From Blautia parvula (GTDB lineage Bacteria > Bacillota > Clostridia > Lachnospirales > Lachnospiraceae), in contig NZ_CP084061.1 in assembly GCF_020215665.1 (NCBI RefSeq), forward strand, positions 1,240,001 through 1,304,000: a stretch of 64,000 bases of DNA. Reading direction: 5' to 3'. The first letter of the stretch is position 1, and every line of letters starts with the position of its first letter. The notes beneath the pieces were generated by a model that searched no databases, was not told where the DNA came from, and saw only the letters and a program-made list of their open reading frames with translations. This document shows positions 41,442 to 46,666 of the stretch, piece after piece. A program made the position numbers and the translations under genes.

Positions 41442-43052
41442 TTATTTTTCCTGCCCCATCATGATGATTCTGTCACTGACGTGCATGACCATGGGCAGGT
41501 CATGGGCAATGAGCATAATAGTCAGATGATGCTCCTCCTGCAGCTTTTTAAACAGATGCATGATCTGTGCCTGAATGGAGATATCCAACGAGGAAATGGG
41601 CTCATCCGCCACAATAAACTCCGGTTCCACGGACAGCGCCCTGGCAATGGCTGCCCTCTGCCGCTGTCCTCCTGACACGTCATAGGGATGGCGGAGGGCA
41701 AGGGCCGGATCAAGTTCCACCTGCTCCATTAAGGAGCGCACCCGCTCCCGCAGTTCCCGCCTGCCTCTGCACAGCTTCTGGATCCTGAGCGGTTCCCCTA
41801 TGATCTCCTCCAGGGTCATGTGAGGATTGAATGCTGAGGAGCTGTCCTGGAAGATCATCTGTCTTCTGTAAATGCGGGCAGTGTCCCCGTGATAGAGAAT
41901 CTTTCCGCCATCCGGTTCGTAAAGCCCTACGATACACCTGGCAAGGGTGGATTTCCCGCAGCCGGAGGGACCGGCCACTCCCAGGATTTCCCCTCTGTAG
42001 ACATCCAGAGAAAAATCCTCCAGGACACGGGAAACCGTATGCCTGTCCAGACGGAAATTTTTAGACAGATGGCGAATCTCGATGAGCTTTTCCGGTTCCG
42101 GCTCTTTAAGAAGAACCACCTGATCACCGGGTGTTATCTTTTCCTCTACCTGTACAGCCGGATGAGAGACATCCCCCTCCACATGGGGGTGCATATGGTT
42201 GTGCGTGCCGCCGTGGGTATGGGGCATGCCGTTGTGGAAATGTATCTTACCGTGTGTATGCCCGATGCCTTTTCCGTAATTCCGGTATCCCAGCATTTTT
42301 ATGGTATAGGGATTCTGCGCGTGATCAAAAATATCATGGACACTGCCGCTCTCCACAATCTCTCCCCGGTACATGACATATACGCTGTCCGCCACATCTT
42401 CCACCAGACCCAGGTCATGGGTGATGAAGAGAATGGCAACCCCGGTCTCTTTTCTTATCTTTGCCAAAAGCTCCATGATCTGCTGCTGGGTGTCCACATC
42501 CAGCGCAGTAGTCGGCTCATCTGCCAGCAAAAGGCCCGGGCTGCAGGCAAGGGCTATGGCGATTGCCGCCCTCTGCCGCATGCCCCCGGAAAACTGGTGG
42601 GGATACTGGGAAAACCGCTTTTCACATTGCTCAAATCCGGTGAGTTCCAATAGTTCCAGTGTTCTGGCCTTTGCCTCTTTTTTTGATATTTTCTCATGGA
42701 GAAGGATGGTCTCCATAATCTGCTTTCCGATGGAAATCGTTGGGTTCAATGACAGATAAGGGTCCTGAAACACCATGGAAATCTCCCTGCCGCGGAATTT
42801 CTGCATCTGCTTTTCCGTATATTCCAATATGTTGCTGCCCTGATACAGAATCTCGCCGCTTTCCACCCGGGTCTTATTTCCGAGAAGCTGTAATATGGTT
42901 TTGCACAGCACGGTTTTTCCGGAGCCGGATTCCCCCACAAGGGCAGCCAGCTCCCCTCTTTTAAGCTCCAGACTTACGTGTCTTGCGGCGCGGGTCTGCT
43001 CCTCATCCTGAAAGGTCACGGACAGATCGCGAATCTCCAATAATGTCTCCAT
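41442..43052 (-). CDS. Fused double ATPase of a nickel/peptide-type ABC importer, His-rich linker
   Basis: A 536-residue protein made of two full ABC ATPase domains (DppD+DppF or NikD+NikE in one chain). Domain 1 (about 5-255): Walker A GESGSGKT (40-47), signature FSGGMRQR (154-161), Walker B LLLADEP. Domain 2 (about 323-536): Walker A GPSGCGKST (361-369), signature VSGGQRQR (459-466), Walker B FIVADEP. The linker at 265-297 holds 11 histidines in HTH, HFH, HTH and HNHMHPH patterns. Normal oligopeptide transporters lack this. It suggests binding of Ni2+ or another transition metal, as in His-rich loops of metal chaperones. It is the last gene of a four-gene operon with its own terminator. Confidence 0.94.
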   Translation of the reverse strand: METLLEIRDLSVTFQDEEQTRAARHVSLELKRGELAALVGESGSGKTVLCKTILQLLGNKTRVESGEILYQGSNILEYTEKQMQKFRGREISMVFQDPYLSLNPTISIGKQIMETILLHEKISKKEAKARTLELLELTGFEQCEKRFSQYPHQFSGGMRQRAAIAIALACSPGLLLADEPTTALDVDTQQQIMELLAKIRKETGVAILFITHDLGLVEDVADSVYVMYRGEIVESGSVHDIFDHAQNPYTIKMLGYRNYGKGIGHTHGKIHFHNGMPHTHGGTHNHMHPHVEGDVSHPAVQVEEKITPGDQVVLLKEPEPEKLIEIRHLSKNFRLDRHTVSRVLEDFSLDVYRGEILGVAGPSGCGKSTLARCIVGLYEPDGGKILYHGDTARIYRRQMIFQDSSSAFNPHMTLEEIIGEPLRIQKLCRGRRELRERVRSLMEQVELDPALALRHPYDVSGGQRQRAAIARALSVEPEFIVADEPISSLDISIQAQIMHLFKKLQEEHHLTIMLIAHDLPMVMHVSDRIIMMGQEK

Positions 43053-43081
43053 AAGTGTTCTCTCTTTTCTATAATGAAGTG

Positions 43082-44665
43082 TTACATATCCCAGTCGTAA
43101 ATATTCCAGAAGATACCCACACCGTGATGACCGAGAACCGTGTCCTTCGTCAGTCCGGTGATGTTGTCTTTTGATACATACATGGCGTCAATATATGCGA
43201 TAAAGGTATAAGGAAGGTCTTTTGACAGCTCTGCCTGGAATTCCTTATACAGCGGAAGTCTCTCCTCCTGTGTCTCCAGTTCTCTTGCCTGCTGAAGAAG
43301 TTCGTCTACTTTTGCATTGGAGTAGCTGCTGTAGTTGGCTCCTTTGTCTGTGCCGAATACTTTGTAGGTATGGTCATCCGGGTCAAAAGGACTTCCCCAC
43401 CCGATCAGGTATGCATCCTGGTTTGCCCAGTCTGTCTCTGCTGTCACTTCCACTTTACAGTTCACGCCGATATCCTGCAGGTTCTGCGCGCAGATATTTG
43501 ACATATCAATACGCACCTGGTCTGCCTGACCGTTGGAAATGGTGAAGGCAAGCTGTTCTCCGTCTTTTTCATAATACCCGTCATCGCCCATTTTCCAGCC
43601 GTTTTCTTCCAGAAGCTGTTTCGCTTTCTCCGGATCAAACTCATATTTTTCAATGTCCGGGTTGTTATAAGGTCCCATCTGCAGAGGAGAGTACGCTGCC
43701 TCCCCGTGGCCTAACAGCACGCTGTCCACAATAGACTGGCGGTCAATGGCATAGCTTAAGATATTTGGCAGTTCCCTGTGTCTGCCAAAGAACTCACTTC
43801 CGAAGTTATAAAGGATTCCTCTGTAATCTGCTGTTTTCATAACATCCACAACAAATCCGTCTTCCCCCTCAAACTGCTTGGCATCTTTCGGTGTCACCTG
43901 CGCCAGATCCAGTTCCCCTGATTTTAACTGAAGGGCCCTTGCCTGGGTATCCTCCACAATCTTAAAGACTACCTTGTCAATCTTAGGTGCTCCCAGATAG
44001 AAGTCATCAAACTTTTCAAGGGTAATGCTCTGTCCCTCGTCCCAGGAAACCAGCTTGTATGGGCCGCAGCCCACAGGATTTCTGTTGAAATCATCGGTCA
44101 CGATGTCTTTTCCCTCCAGCAGATGCTTGGGCAGGATTCCGATAGTCAGGTAATCCAGCATGGCAACATTTGGTGCTTTCAGAGTAATCTTCACCGTACT
44201 GTCATCCGGAGTCTCAATCCCTGTGATATCCTCATAGTTGGAAGCAATCTCAGAGGCATTGTCCGGGTTCATTATAGTATCCAGCGTAAACTTCACATCC
44301 GCGGAGGTAAAGGTCTCGCCGTCATGGAATGTCACGTCTTTTCTCAAATGAAAGGTATAGGTTTTGGACGCCTCATCCCACTCCCAGCTCTCTGCAAGAG
44401 CAGGTACCACTTTGTCCTCTGCATCATGGGCTGTCATACCTGCAAATATAAGGGAATTGATCTCCCCATGCTCATAGAGCGCAGGGTTAATATTGGTGTA
44501 ATCACCGCTTCCGTAAACCAGCGTCTTTTCCTCCCCGCTCTTATCCGCAGCCTCTGTTTTTGTGTCTGTATCTCCTTTTGCCTTATCGTCTTTGCTCCCG
44601 CAGCCTGCAAGCAGTGAGGCTGCCATGGATGCTGCCAGCAGTAATGTCAGTATTTTCTTCTTCAT
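43082..44665 (-). CDS. Solute-binding lipoprotein of a nickel/peptide-type ABC importer
   Basis: A 527-residue family 5 extracellular solute-binding protein. Lipobox LLAGC ends at Cys22, followed by a charged linker (DDKAKGDTDTKTEAADKSG). The family signature LAESWEWDEASKTYTFHLRKDVTFHDG is at about 90-116 (AESWEWDEASKTYTFHLRK). YAIDRQSIVDSVLLGHGEAA and FDPEKAKQLLEENGWK are also typical. Members bind oligopeptides, glutathione, heme or a Ni2+ chelate. The sequence alone does not decide; the His-rich ATPase of the same operon tilts toward a metal. The gene precedes the ATPase by 29 bases. Confidence 0.92.
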   Translation of the reverse strand: MKKKILTLLLAASMAASLLAGCGSKDDKAKGDTDTKTEAADKSGEEKTLVYGSGDYTNINPALYEHGEINSLIFAGMTAHDAEDKVVPALAESWEWDEASKTYTFHLRKDVTFHDGETFTSADVKFTLDTIMNPDNASEIASNYEDITGIETPDDSTVKITLKAPNVAMLDYLTIGILPKHLLEGKDIVTDDFNRNPVGCGPYKLVSWDEGQSITLEKFDDFYLGAPKIDKVVFKIVEDTQARALQLKSGELDLAQVTPKDAKQFEGEDGFVVDVMKTADYRGILYNFGSEFFGRHRELPNILSYAIDRQSIVDSVLLGHGEAAYSPLQMGPYNNPDIEKYEFDPEKAKQLLEENGWKMGDDGYYEKDGEQLAFTISNGQADQVRIDMSNICAQNLQDIGVNCKVEVTAETDWANQDAYLIGWGSPFDPDDHTYKVFGTDKGANYSSYSNAKVDELLQQARELETQEERLPLYKEFQAELSKDLPYTFIAYIDAMYVSKDNITGLTKDTVLGHHGVGIFWNIYDWDM

Positions 44666-44735
44666 GTCTGTTCTCCTTTTGCGTTTATTGCCGGTTTGCC
44701 GGAATGCCCGGCAGCGGCTGTAATCGGTTGCCGTT

Positions 44736-45554
44736 TTATAGGTTGCTGTGTTCTCTGTTGTTTCTCAGGCGGATGTACTCTCCCACATTGGTGATACACA
44801 CCAGAGTGGTTACCAGGAACAGCCCGGGAATCAGAATGATCCACCAGGAGTTGGACAACAGGGCTTTCTGTGAAAGGGACATCATGCTGCCCCAGGAAAT
44901 GATCTCCATGGGAAGGCCGATTCCCAGAAAACTTAAGGTGGCCTCCGTGCCGATCGCCGCGCTTACATTTGTGACGATCATGAACATGGTGGAGGATATA
45001 AAATTGGGAAACAGATGTTTCCGCAGTATGTAGAAAAACTTTCCGCCGGCCAGTCTGGACGCCAGAACAAAATCACTGTTCCGTATCTGGCGCACTTCAC
45101 TTCTGACCACTTTGGAAATGTTCATCCAGCTTGTAAGTCCAATCACCACAGCAATACTGGTAGCTGTAGCTTCCCCCAAAAGTGCCTGCAGAAAGATCAC
45201 AAGCAGGATGGAGGGAATACTCAAAATGATCTCTGTGAAGCGCATCAGCAAATCGTCCAGCCAATCCGGCACAAGGCCGCTGACACAGCCGTATACAATG
45301 GCAGTCACAGAGGATATAGCAGTCGCCAGTATCCCGATATACAGGGATACTCTTCCGCCCTCCCATATCATGGAGTATATATCCCTCCCCATGGTATCCG
45401 TGCCGAAATAATGGGCACTGCCGGGCGGCAGACTGACTTCTGTCAGGTTCATGTAAAAAGGATCTCCTGTCGCTAAAACTTTTCCAAACAGGCATCCTAG
45501 GATAATAACTCCCAGTACCAACAGGGAGAAAACGGGGAAATTTTTCTTTTTCAT
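44736..45554 (-). CDS. ABC importer permease, DppC/NikC type
   Basis: A 272-residue permease with about six transmembrane helices. Typical features are HYFGTDTMGRDIYSMIWEGGR near 48-68 (HYFGTDTMGRDIYSMIWEG), the DRTEI-type LLMRFTEIILSIPSI, and the EAA loop region ASRLAGGKFFYILRKHLFPN that touches the ATPase. The start overlaps the stop of the preceding permease by four bases (ATGA), so the two are translationally coupled. Confidence 0.94.
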   Translation of the reverse strand: MKKKNFPVFSLLVLGVIILGCLFGKVLATGDPFYMNLTEVSLPPGSAHYFGTDTMGRDIYSMIWEGGRVSLYIGILATAISSVTAIVYGCVSGLVPDWLDDLLMRFTEIILSIPSILLVIFLQALLGEATATSIAVVIGLTSWMNISKVVRSEVRQIRNSDFVLASRLAGGKFFYILRKHLFPNFISSTMFMIVTNVSAAIGTEATLSFLGIGLPMEIISWGSMMSLSQKALLSNSWWIILIPGLFLVTTLVCITNVGEYIRLRNNREHSNL

Positions 45555-46564
45555 GCTGCTTTTTCCCCTCTTTCCTGTTTCATTCTGGGGTCAATCCATT
45601 CGCTGATGATCTGGCCTGCCACATTTGCCACAATGACCGCAAAGCCTGTGATAAGGCTTAATACCATCAGCATATTGTAGTCATGGTACTGGGCGCTCTC
45701 CATACTGAGCGTCCCCAGACCGGGATAGGAAAAGACACTCTCCGCGATGTAGGTTCCGCCGATGATATGGGGCACGGAAATAGCCATGATACTGATCAGG
45801 GAAGGCAGGATTTTCCTCAGGCAGTGGGTGAACATGATGCGGCATTTCCCCATGCCCTTTACCTTGCACAGAAGTACATAGTCCTCGCGGATTTCCTCCA
45901 GAAGCTTGTTTCTTACCATATATGTGTAATACCACAGATGGGATAACACCATAACCGTGACCGGCAGGATCAGATGTATCAGCCTGTCACCCAGGGAATG
46001 TTCCCCTCCCAGGGCATAGGCGCCGCTTGTGGGCAGTACAGCCAGATTCACGCCGAAGATAAGGATCAGCACAAGCGCAACGAAAAAGGAGGGGATACAG
46101 TTGGTCACAGTCCCGATCTTACAGATGCACCTGTCGATCAGGGTATTCTCACGCATCGCACAGAAAATACCCAGCAAAACAGCGAAAAGGAAGGTGAGCA
46201 CATAGGATAAGCCTCCCAGTATCAGGGTATTGGCATATACCTTCTCTATGACTGCTCCCACATCCTGCTTATATTTATATGAAATCCCGAAATCCCCGTG
46301 CAGGGCATTTTCCACCCAGCGCACGTACTGCACGGTCATAGGCTCATTGAGGCCCAGACGCTCCCTGGCCTTCTCCTTCTGGCTCTCATTCATCCGCTCC
46401 ACGCTCTCCCCGTAATAGGATTTTAAAGGGTCCCCGGGAGAAAGGCGGGCAATAAAAAATACCAGTATGGACAGCACCAGCATGGACAGCAGGATCTGTA
46501 CCAGTTTCTTCAGCAAAAATTCAAACTTCTGTGGTGTATTCAATGTATTTTCCTCTTCATTCAT
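45551..46564 (-). CDS. ABC importer permease, DppB/NikB type
   Basis: A 337-residue permease, first gene of the operon. The N-terminal helix LSILVFFIARLSPGDPLKSYYG and the sequence ERLGLNEPMTVQYVRWVENALHG-type (LNEPMTVQYVRWVENALHGD) are classic for DppB/NikB. The EAA loop VKGMGKCRIMFTHCLRKILP and about six helices follow. The chain starts MNEEENTLNTPQKFEF with a charged cytosolic tail. It is longer by about 20 residues than E. coli NikB at the N-terminus. Confidence 0.94.
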   Translation of the reverse strand: MNEEENTLNTPQKFEFLLKKLVQILLSMLVLSILVFFIARLSPGDPLKSYYGESVERMNESQKEKARERLGLNEPMTVQYVRWVENALHGDFGISYKYKQDVGAVIEKVYANTLILGGLSYVLTFLFAVLLGIFCAMRENTLIDRCICKIGTVTNCIPSFFVALVLILIFGVNLAVLPTSGAYALGGEHSLGDRLIHLILPVTVMVLSHLWYYTYMVRNKLLEEIREDYVLLCKVKGMGKCRIMFTHCLRKILPSLISIMAISVPHIIGGTYIAESVFSYPGLGTLSMESAQYHDYNMLMVLSLITGFAVIVANVAGQIISEWIDPRMKQERGEKAA

Positions 46565-46622
46565 TCCGGTAAATTGTCAGCAAAAAAGTAACGCCGCATC
46601 TGTTATTTTTTTGACTATCCAT

Positions 46623-46651
46623 AGTATAGCAGACAAAAAATCCCCCCACAA
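46623..46651 (-). promoter_or_regulatory. Candidate promoter of the ABC importer operon
   Basis: Reverse-strand -35 TTGTGG (46646-46651) and -10 TATACT (46623-46628) spaced by 17 bases, with start near 46616. The -35 box lies inside the stem of the upstream terminator, an unusual overlap. No NikR-type or Fur-type palindrome is obvious around it. Confidence 0.55.
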
Positions 46652-46666
46652 GCCACGTGGGGGGAT
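46635..46666 (-). terminator. Intrinsic terminator of the flavoenzyme gene
   Basis: A stem of ATCCCCCCAC / GTGGGGGGAT with a short loop, followed on the reverse strand by TTTTTTG. It lies 60 bases beyond the oxidoreductase stop codon. Confidence 0.85.

Follow-up and report, generated by a model that had tools for sequence, protein, structure and literature searches.

What is the purpose of a histidine-rich linker between the two ATP-binding domains of an importer ATPase? The question is raised by a fused ABC ATPase of Blautia parvula, encoded in the stretch of 64,000 nucleotides which was analysed here as a whole (the window). The sequence-only reading of this DNA had pointed out eleven histidines including H-x-H pairs in residues 265-297 of the protein. 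Count and pairs were exact on the minus strand at 42162-42260, and a plus-strand reading of these positions was rejected because the gene occupies the minus strand at 41442-43052. The gene and its parts, named NBD1 and NBD2 for the two halves, are as follows.

41442-43052, minus strand: complete fused ABC ATPase gene, 536 amino acids (open reading frame and translation)
42291-43052, minus strand: NBD1 (OppD/NikD-like), residues 1-254 (motifs and profile scores)
42087-42290, minus strand: whole linker, residues 255-322, replacing the C-terminal domain of NBD1 (comparison with relatives)
42162-42260, minus strand: histidine-rich part of the linker, residues 265-297, 11 histidines, starting H-T-H-G-K-I-H-F-H-N-G (translation)
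41445-42086, minus strand: NBD2 (OppF/NikE-like), residues 323-536 (motifs and profile scores)

The fused ATPase and its operon

Walker A, signature, Walker B and H-loop are present in both halves of the ATPase, where they were found by their own letters. NBD2 ends about 20 residues past its H-loop, the usual tail being gone. An AlphaFold2 model based on 25 alignment rows (mean pLDDT 85) consists of two confident halves and predicts disorder in the linker, with a pLDDT below 50 at residues 266-268 and 270-316.

The NCBIfam models of NikD (TIGR02770) and NikE (TIGR02769) were among the stronger matches of half 1 and half 2, respectively. Scored apart, the halves reached 252.7 bits against the NikD cut-off of 318.7 and 196.6 bits against the NikE cut-off of 332.55. 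The undivided fusion passes these cut-offs because the scores of its two halves add up. The strict name of a NikD plus NikE fusion, as proposed in the sequence-only reading, was rejected since each half alone stays below its cut-off; what is left of it is a likeness.

The eleven histidine codons of the linker (265, 267, 271, 273, 278, 280, 284, 286, 288, 290 and 297) are a mixture of CAT and CAC, and the 33-residue stretch contains six overlapping H-x-H steps. Over the 48 open reading frames of the window judged to be plausible genes histidine makes up 1.97% of the residues (329/16672), and the second-highest count per 33 residues among them is 6. At the rate found in the NBDs (2.1%) the binomial probability of at least 11 histidines in 33 residues is 4e-11, a value which applies to a stretch chosen for being rich in histidine. 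No tandem repeat was detected in 42100-42320 at a score of at least 30, and a slippage repeat was thus rejected as origin of the tract.

The ATPase gene belongs to an operon which encodes two permeases and two NBDs together with a substrate-binding lipoprotein. Its further genes and the elements in front of it are listed below.

43082-44665, minus strand: NikZ-type substrate-binding lipoprotein, 527 amino acids (homology; HH pair 513-514 and H66 conserved)
44736-45554, minus strand: permease of the NikC/OppC type, 272 amino acids (profile match)
45551-46564, minus strand: permease of the NikB/OppB type, 337 amino acids (profile match)
46581-46613, minus strand: palindrome just upstream of the first permease gene, 12-nt arms, 92% complementary, 9-nt gap; candidate operator
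46640-46666, minus strand: terminator-like hairpin (11 pairs) that separates the operon from the gene of a flavin oxidoreductase lying upstream (hairpin scan)

The binding protein is a member of family 5 and nearest to the NikZ kind. Its best solved match is PDB 8efz (397.7 bits, 7e-118), which we take to be CcNikZ-II, and the second is 4oet (356.3 bits, 2e-105), presumably the NikZ of Campylobacter jejuni; the third-ranked solved match lies far below both (220.8 bits). 8efz and 4oet both align to the C-terminal G-H-H-G of the binding protein with the HH pair kept, and this pair and H66 are invariant in all 10 aligned rows. The pair presumably corresponds to the 'HH-prong' of CcNikZ-II, a term from the title of a study cited in PMC12086673. 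In the accessible parts of two papers, direct recognition of Ni(II) is described for C. jejuni NikZ (PMC12086673) and the NikZ ligand is given as Ni-(L-His)2 (PMC5140060). The nikA cut-off (TIGR02294) was missed by the binding protein (210.7 against 393 bits). Judging from these protein sequences the operon very probably encodes a NikZ-type importer, and we infer that nickel is its most likely substrate. The sequence-only reading is supported in so far as the linker is part of a transporter with a binding protein of the NikZ nickel type.

Terminator-like sites number 14 in the window scan against 6.3 in shuffles, and the hairpin at 46640-46666 has the most pairs among them. Due to its position between the two, a common operon with the BaiCD-like flavin oxidoreductase gene is thought unlikely. 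The palindrome at 46581-46613 stands beside a TATACT-like box and appears longer by eye if gaps are allowed. As the genome search did not detect NikR, the palindrome is a candidate operator for a different regulator. Nothing resembling it was seen by eye among the palindromes listed upstream of 26 relatives from the clade described below. Furthermore, no nickel/cobalt riboswitch (Rfam) was detected in the window or in 8 relatives.

A clade of compact fusions

A scan of genome contigs with the ATPase as query yielded no relative. Of the loci compared here, 79 named ones stem from a scan with the binding protein, in which the best 80 out of 523 stretches were kept; they are thus the nearest loci and not the full set. 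In addition, 397 genomes of the same family were searched, of which 23 contained a NikZ-like protein at 1e-100, the own genome being included with two. The relatives comprise 102 loci, among them three pairs with identical binding proteins (L046/L111, L048/L127 and L054/L142) that were kept in the neighbour counts. Together with the window they gave a tree of 103 binding proteins, calculated by a quick method (LG+G4) with SH-aLRT supports and without bootstrap.

Separate ATPases with a C-terminal domain in the first half are encoded in 46 of the 103 loci and compact fusions with H-x-H in 26. The other loci contain fusions keeping the domain (12), separate ATPases that are short or incomplete (11), compact fusions without H-x-H (5) or no ATPase seen nearby (3). 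In the compact fusion the linker takes the place of the half-1 C-terminal domain, and the second half is trimmed. NikZ-type binding proteins and permeases were observed in L059, L063 and L086, where no ATPase of the family was recognised within the examined stretch.

One clade of 30 of the 103 binding proteins (SH-aLRT 99) has no member with the C-terminal domain. It unites 25 of the 26 compact fusions with H-x-H, three of the five without H-x-H and two loci with ATPases cut by contig ends (L108 and L129). The latter are outside the 28 readable linkers, all of which belong to compact fusions. NBD2 ends soon after the H-loop in 27 of these 28 proteins; the remaining one (L130) is cut by a contig end and was counted for its linker. 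The linker of L110 was delimited too long (252 amino acids) with a split NBD2 match, and its core H-R-H was counted. Three further fusions without the domain (L121, L137 and L145) lie outside the clade, keep the NBD2 tail and were excluded from the 28; one of them (L121) contains H-x-H. The window ATPase combines all four traits of the clade, namely the fusion, the loss of the NBD1 C-terminal domain, the H-x-H after Y-x-x-Y-G-K and the trimmed end of NBD2. The distinct arrangement that had been supposed for this protein is thus confirmed as a compact fusion without the usual half-1 C-terminal domain, characteristic of one clade.

The sister of the window binding protein is that of Anaerovorax odorimutans DSM 5092 (L069; support 97), whose ATPase has a linker with 9 histidines. 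The nearest relatives of the operon (41442-46564) were observed in other families, first of all in the Anaerovoracaceae. None of the loci from 21 other genomes of the same family (L046-L063, L065-L068) falls inside the clade, and in two genomes of the same genus neither protein was found at the cut-offs used. Taking this distribution into account, the operon may have been acquired sideways.

The own genome contains a second NikZ-like operon (L064:7367-12813; G000:C1:4923866-4929312), the binding protein of which is 45-46% identical. Its ATPases are separate and the first keeps the C-terminal domain. About 4.5 kb downstream of it a gene resembling a MerR-type regulator was noticed by eye (L008:534-1415). 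In OppD-type proteins cysteines of the C-terminal domain hold an iron-sulphur cluster. The half-1 C-terminal domain of the NikZ-like loci (L047-L068 and others) seems to be without most of these cysteines and to keep the motif T-H-x-A-A-T-W-L-L.

Nickel genes in the neighbourhoods and genomes

The sequence-only reading had linked such linkers with nickel enzymes (urease, CODH or hydrogenase) encoded nearby. No nickel genes stand beside the window operon, and Lar genes are absent from the window. The nickel genes found as neighbours are the nickel-pincer genes larE, larB and larC, at least one of which was detected near the operon in 7 of the 29 clade relatives and in 9 of the 73 others. These counts are lower bounds, since the flanks are unequal in length. 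BLAST from a single locus served to detect the Lar neighbours, and those of L091 alone were checked with NCBIfam, where they were over the cut-off. Occurring in clade and non-clade loci, they are a mark of NikZ-like transporters in general, rather than of the histidine clade. Nine neighbours of the operon in the window gave no BLAST match at 1e-10 among the open reading frames of at least 100 amino acids kept for the 29 clade loci, which likewise makes a common operon with the flavin oxidoreductase gene unlikely.

Two side observations concern these neighbourhoods. In L091 a gene for a LarC with a long histidine-rich stretch of its own (L091:14782-16176) adjoins the gene of a compact ATPase with a 10-histidine linker. 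Genes of the DUF3842 type were observed beside NikZ-type operons in several clades (L128:10791-11276, PF12953, and 15 loci by BLAST) and possibly represent a nickel-linked family.

At the genome level 28 clade genomes were searched for LarB, which was detected in 26 of them and in 241 of the 397 genomes of the family. Within the family, as compared by eye, it occurs in 22 of the 23 genomes that encode a NikZ-like protein and in 219 of the 374 that do not (Fisher p 2e-4, uncorrected for relatedness and genome size). The co-occurrence of LarB and the NikZ-like protein is real but moderate. The own genome encodes three CODH genes, HypB, LarB and a LarA-like protein, none of them near the operon; urease and NikR were not found in it. 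The 28 clade genomes, many of them incomplete, contain HypB in 20, CODH in 7 (6 over the cut-off), urease in 7 and a LarA-like protein in 5 cases, and NikR (NikR_C) in none, the own genome included. Comparing by eye the 8 genomes with at least 8 linker histidines and the 20 others, mostly incomplete assemblies, we found HypB in 6/8 and 14/20, CODH in 2/8 and 5/20, and urease in 1/8 and 6/20, respectively. Long histidine linkers are no commoner where these proteins occur, and the supposed link was rejected at this level.

Possible roles of the linker

We give an even chance to a role in which the importer carries a metal-binding tether that captures Ni(II) and hands it off to nickel users. The NikZ-type importer would bring in Ni(II), driven by the compact fused ATPase. 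On the cytosolic side the flexible linker, with its almost invariant H-x-H core and 11 histidines in this protein, would tie the two halves together and bind Ni(II) leaving the transporter or coming from the nearby cytosol. The metal held there would be guarded against loss or mis-metalation and could be given to the nickel users present in this genome (CODH, hydrogenase maturation and the nickel-pincer pathway). By analogy with other histidine tracts, binding of Ni(II) by the linker in vitro can be expected with high confidence; zinc or cobalt would be bound by such a tract as well. The fusion, the replaced domain, the conserved H-x-H, the type of the binding protein and the Lar neighbours of relatives can be read from the sequences; we infer that the linker binds metal and serves capture or hand-off.

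Behind NBD1 the clade linkers share the order Y-x-x-Y-G-K-x-x-G-H-x-H, followed by a stretch of very different lengths. Histidine is found at position 267 in 27 and at position 265 in 25 of the 28 linkers, Tyr256 in 23, Tyr259 in 21 and Lys261 in 20. This fixed core is the best argument for a sensor of trans-inhibition, in which Ni(II) bound to the H-x-H core and the tract would link or stiffen the halves and slow ATP hydrolysis once nickel is sufficient. In its favour, the linker joins the halves of the ATP sandwich and stands in for the C-terminal domain, and control at the protein level would be useful in genomes among which NikR was found in 0/28. However, outside the core the linker is free in length and letters, and a several-fold variation in length with 0 to 14 histidines is a poor fit to a tuned switch, as is the predicted disorder. 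Capture or buffering accounts for the very variable number of histidines no less well than a slowed ATP hydrolysis does. In view of this great variation and of the predicted disorder, capture and hand-off are favoured over the inhibition of the ATPase, which we consider rather unlikely.

The same variability could speak for a mere tether, whose histidines arose by drift or serve solubility and bind metal incidentally. Between 8 and 14 histidines are present in 8 of the 28 clade linkers (window, L069, L074, L090, L091, L114, L117 and L124) and fewer than 8 in the other 20, while H-x-H occurs in 25 and is missing in L122, L126 and L128. The tract is therefore not essential to the transporter. 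Linkers of other fusions contain few histidines. H-x-H was found in 1 of 12 linkers of fusions keeping the domain, in neither of two fusions that belong to a different kind of transporter (L020, L021) and in none of 49 separate NBD1 tails of at least 60 amino acids. The median histidine fraction is 11% in the clade linkers against 1.9% in the 12 domain-keeping fusions. The claim that H-x-H is absent from ordinary Dpp/Opp ATPases hence holds for the most part; an exception within the own genome is an unrelated fused ATPase of the Opp type (L006:238-2274), which has HHH in its linker and cysteine-containing C-terminal domains.

Against a neutral tether stands the persistence of the core, as the two histidines are kept although the 24 aligned relatives share only 39-59% identity with the window ATPase. 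Both synonymous codons are used at position 265 (CAC 14, CAT 11) and at position 267 (CAC 20, CAT 7), indicating conservation at the level of the residue and not of the DNA, and no DNA repeat underlies the window tract. When these 28 linkers were shuffled 2000 times, H-x-H appeared in 9.9 of them on average and in 17 at most, far below the 25 observed, although the proteins are related and a p-value would not be independent. Furthermore, the motif H-[TH]-H-G-x-[IM]-H-[FY]-H recurs in seven linkers (window, L069, L074, L091, L114, L117 and L124), and the eight long linkers are spread over the clade, with all three of its main branches represented. The long form is thus either old and often shortened or was repeatedly regained. 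As a DNA pattern, H-x-H-G-[KNDE]-I-H-[FY]-H matched 2 of 391 Clostridia genomes, both times inside this ATPase; the two are the window's own genome and one encoding the same protein as L074, and the reversed control pattern had no match among the genomes listed. Taken together, a purely structural linker seems unlikely. The import of another metal or complex (cobalt, zinc, metal-histidine or metal-peptide) with a linker serving that metal is very improbable: histidine tracts do not discriminate between nickel, cobalt and zinc, the binding protein family includes peptide-binding members and Ni-(L-His)2 is mentioned for NikZ in the accessible part of one source (PMC5140060), but the binding protein has its closest match in the NikZ kind and possesses the HH pair, and the genes repeatedly found in the neighbourhood, larE, larB and larC, serve a nickel cofactor.

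A capturing tether would touch two open issues, that is how an importer hands over a toxic metal without free release and how nickel uptake is restrained in bacteria without NikR. The conserved linker of a metal-binding type is a small and easily mutated element of the motor on which both could be tested. Moreover, the clade allows a group of transporters from anaerobes to be recognised by sequence as probable importers of nickel rather than of peptides, although the curated family models used here leave their parts below the cut-offs. A broader evolutionary reading is tentative: in a class of nickel importers, mainly of Clostridia, the half-1 C-terminal domain might have given way, apparently in a single event, to a disordered tether that binds metal and has a nearly invariant H-x-H core, so that the metal is captured by the ATPase and perhaps throttles it. 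If this were true, a metal-responsive motor would have been made from an intrinsically disordered linker.

Among known systems E. coli NikABCDE imports nickel and belongs to the same superfamily, but its NikD and NikE are separate proteins, and NikR was not found in the window genome. NikZYXWV of C. jejuni and CcNikZ-II are similar in the binding protein, which aligned nearly over its full length with the HH pair kept, and NikZYXWV likewise has two permeases and two ATPase halves. The accessible part of one paper names NikZYXWV with five subunits (PMC5140060), from which it follows that its two ATPases are separate, unlike the window fusion; a fused ATPase with a histidine linker is not described in the portions of NikZ-related text covered. 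Two Opp/Dpp-type NBDs in one chain are found in OppABCD and DppABCD of M. tuberculosis (PDB 8j5r, 8wda), which are also the closest solved folds of the window ATPase (33-35% identity over 545-594 alignment columns). In contrast, these are by name oligopeptide and dipeptide systems, and their chains comprise 612 (Opp) and 548 (Dpp) amino acids against 536 in the window.

The C-terminal domains of the methionine importer MetNI and the molybdate importer ModBC confer trans-inhibition by the substrate. The window ATPase resembles them in having a region attached to the NBDs that could bind the imported substrate; unlike their folded C-terminal domains, this region is a linker between the NBDs with predicted disorder. 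A cytosolic histidine-rich stretch on a nickel protein is shared with RcnA, Hpn/HspA and HypB, the latter being a histidine-rich nickel GTPase chaperone. However, RcnA is an exporter and Hpn/HspA act in storage or sequestering, whereas the window tract is located inside the ATPase of an importer. The accessible parts of two papers report that the RcnA loop differs in length and histidine number between organisms (PMC11247825) and that Hpn and HspA are histidine-rich nickel proteins (PMC5140060). The literature searched, covering few subscription journals, contained no described histidine linker in an importer ATPase. Nickel ABC importers, fused Opp/Dpp ATPases and histidine-rich nickel proteins are already known separately; their combination did not appear in the papers searched.
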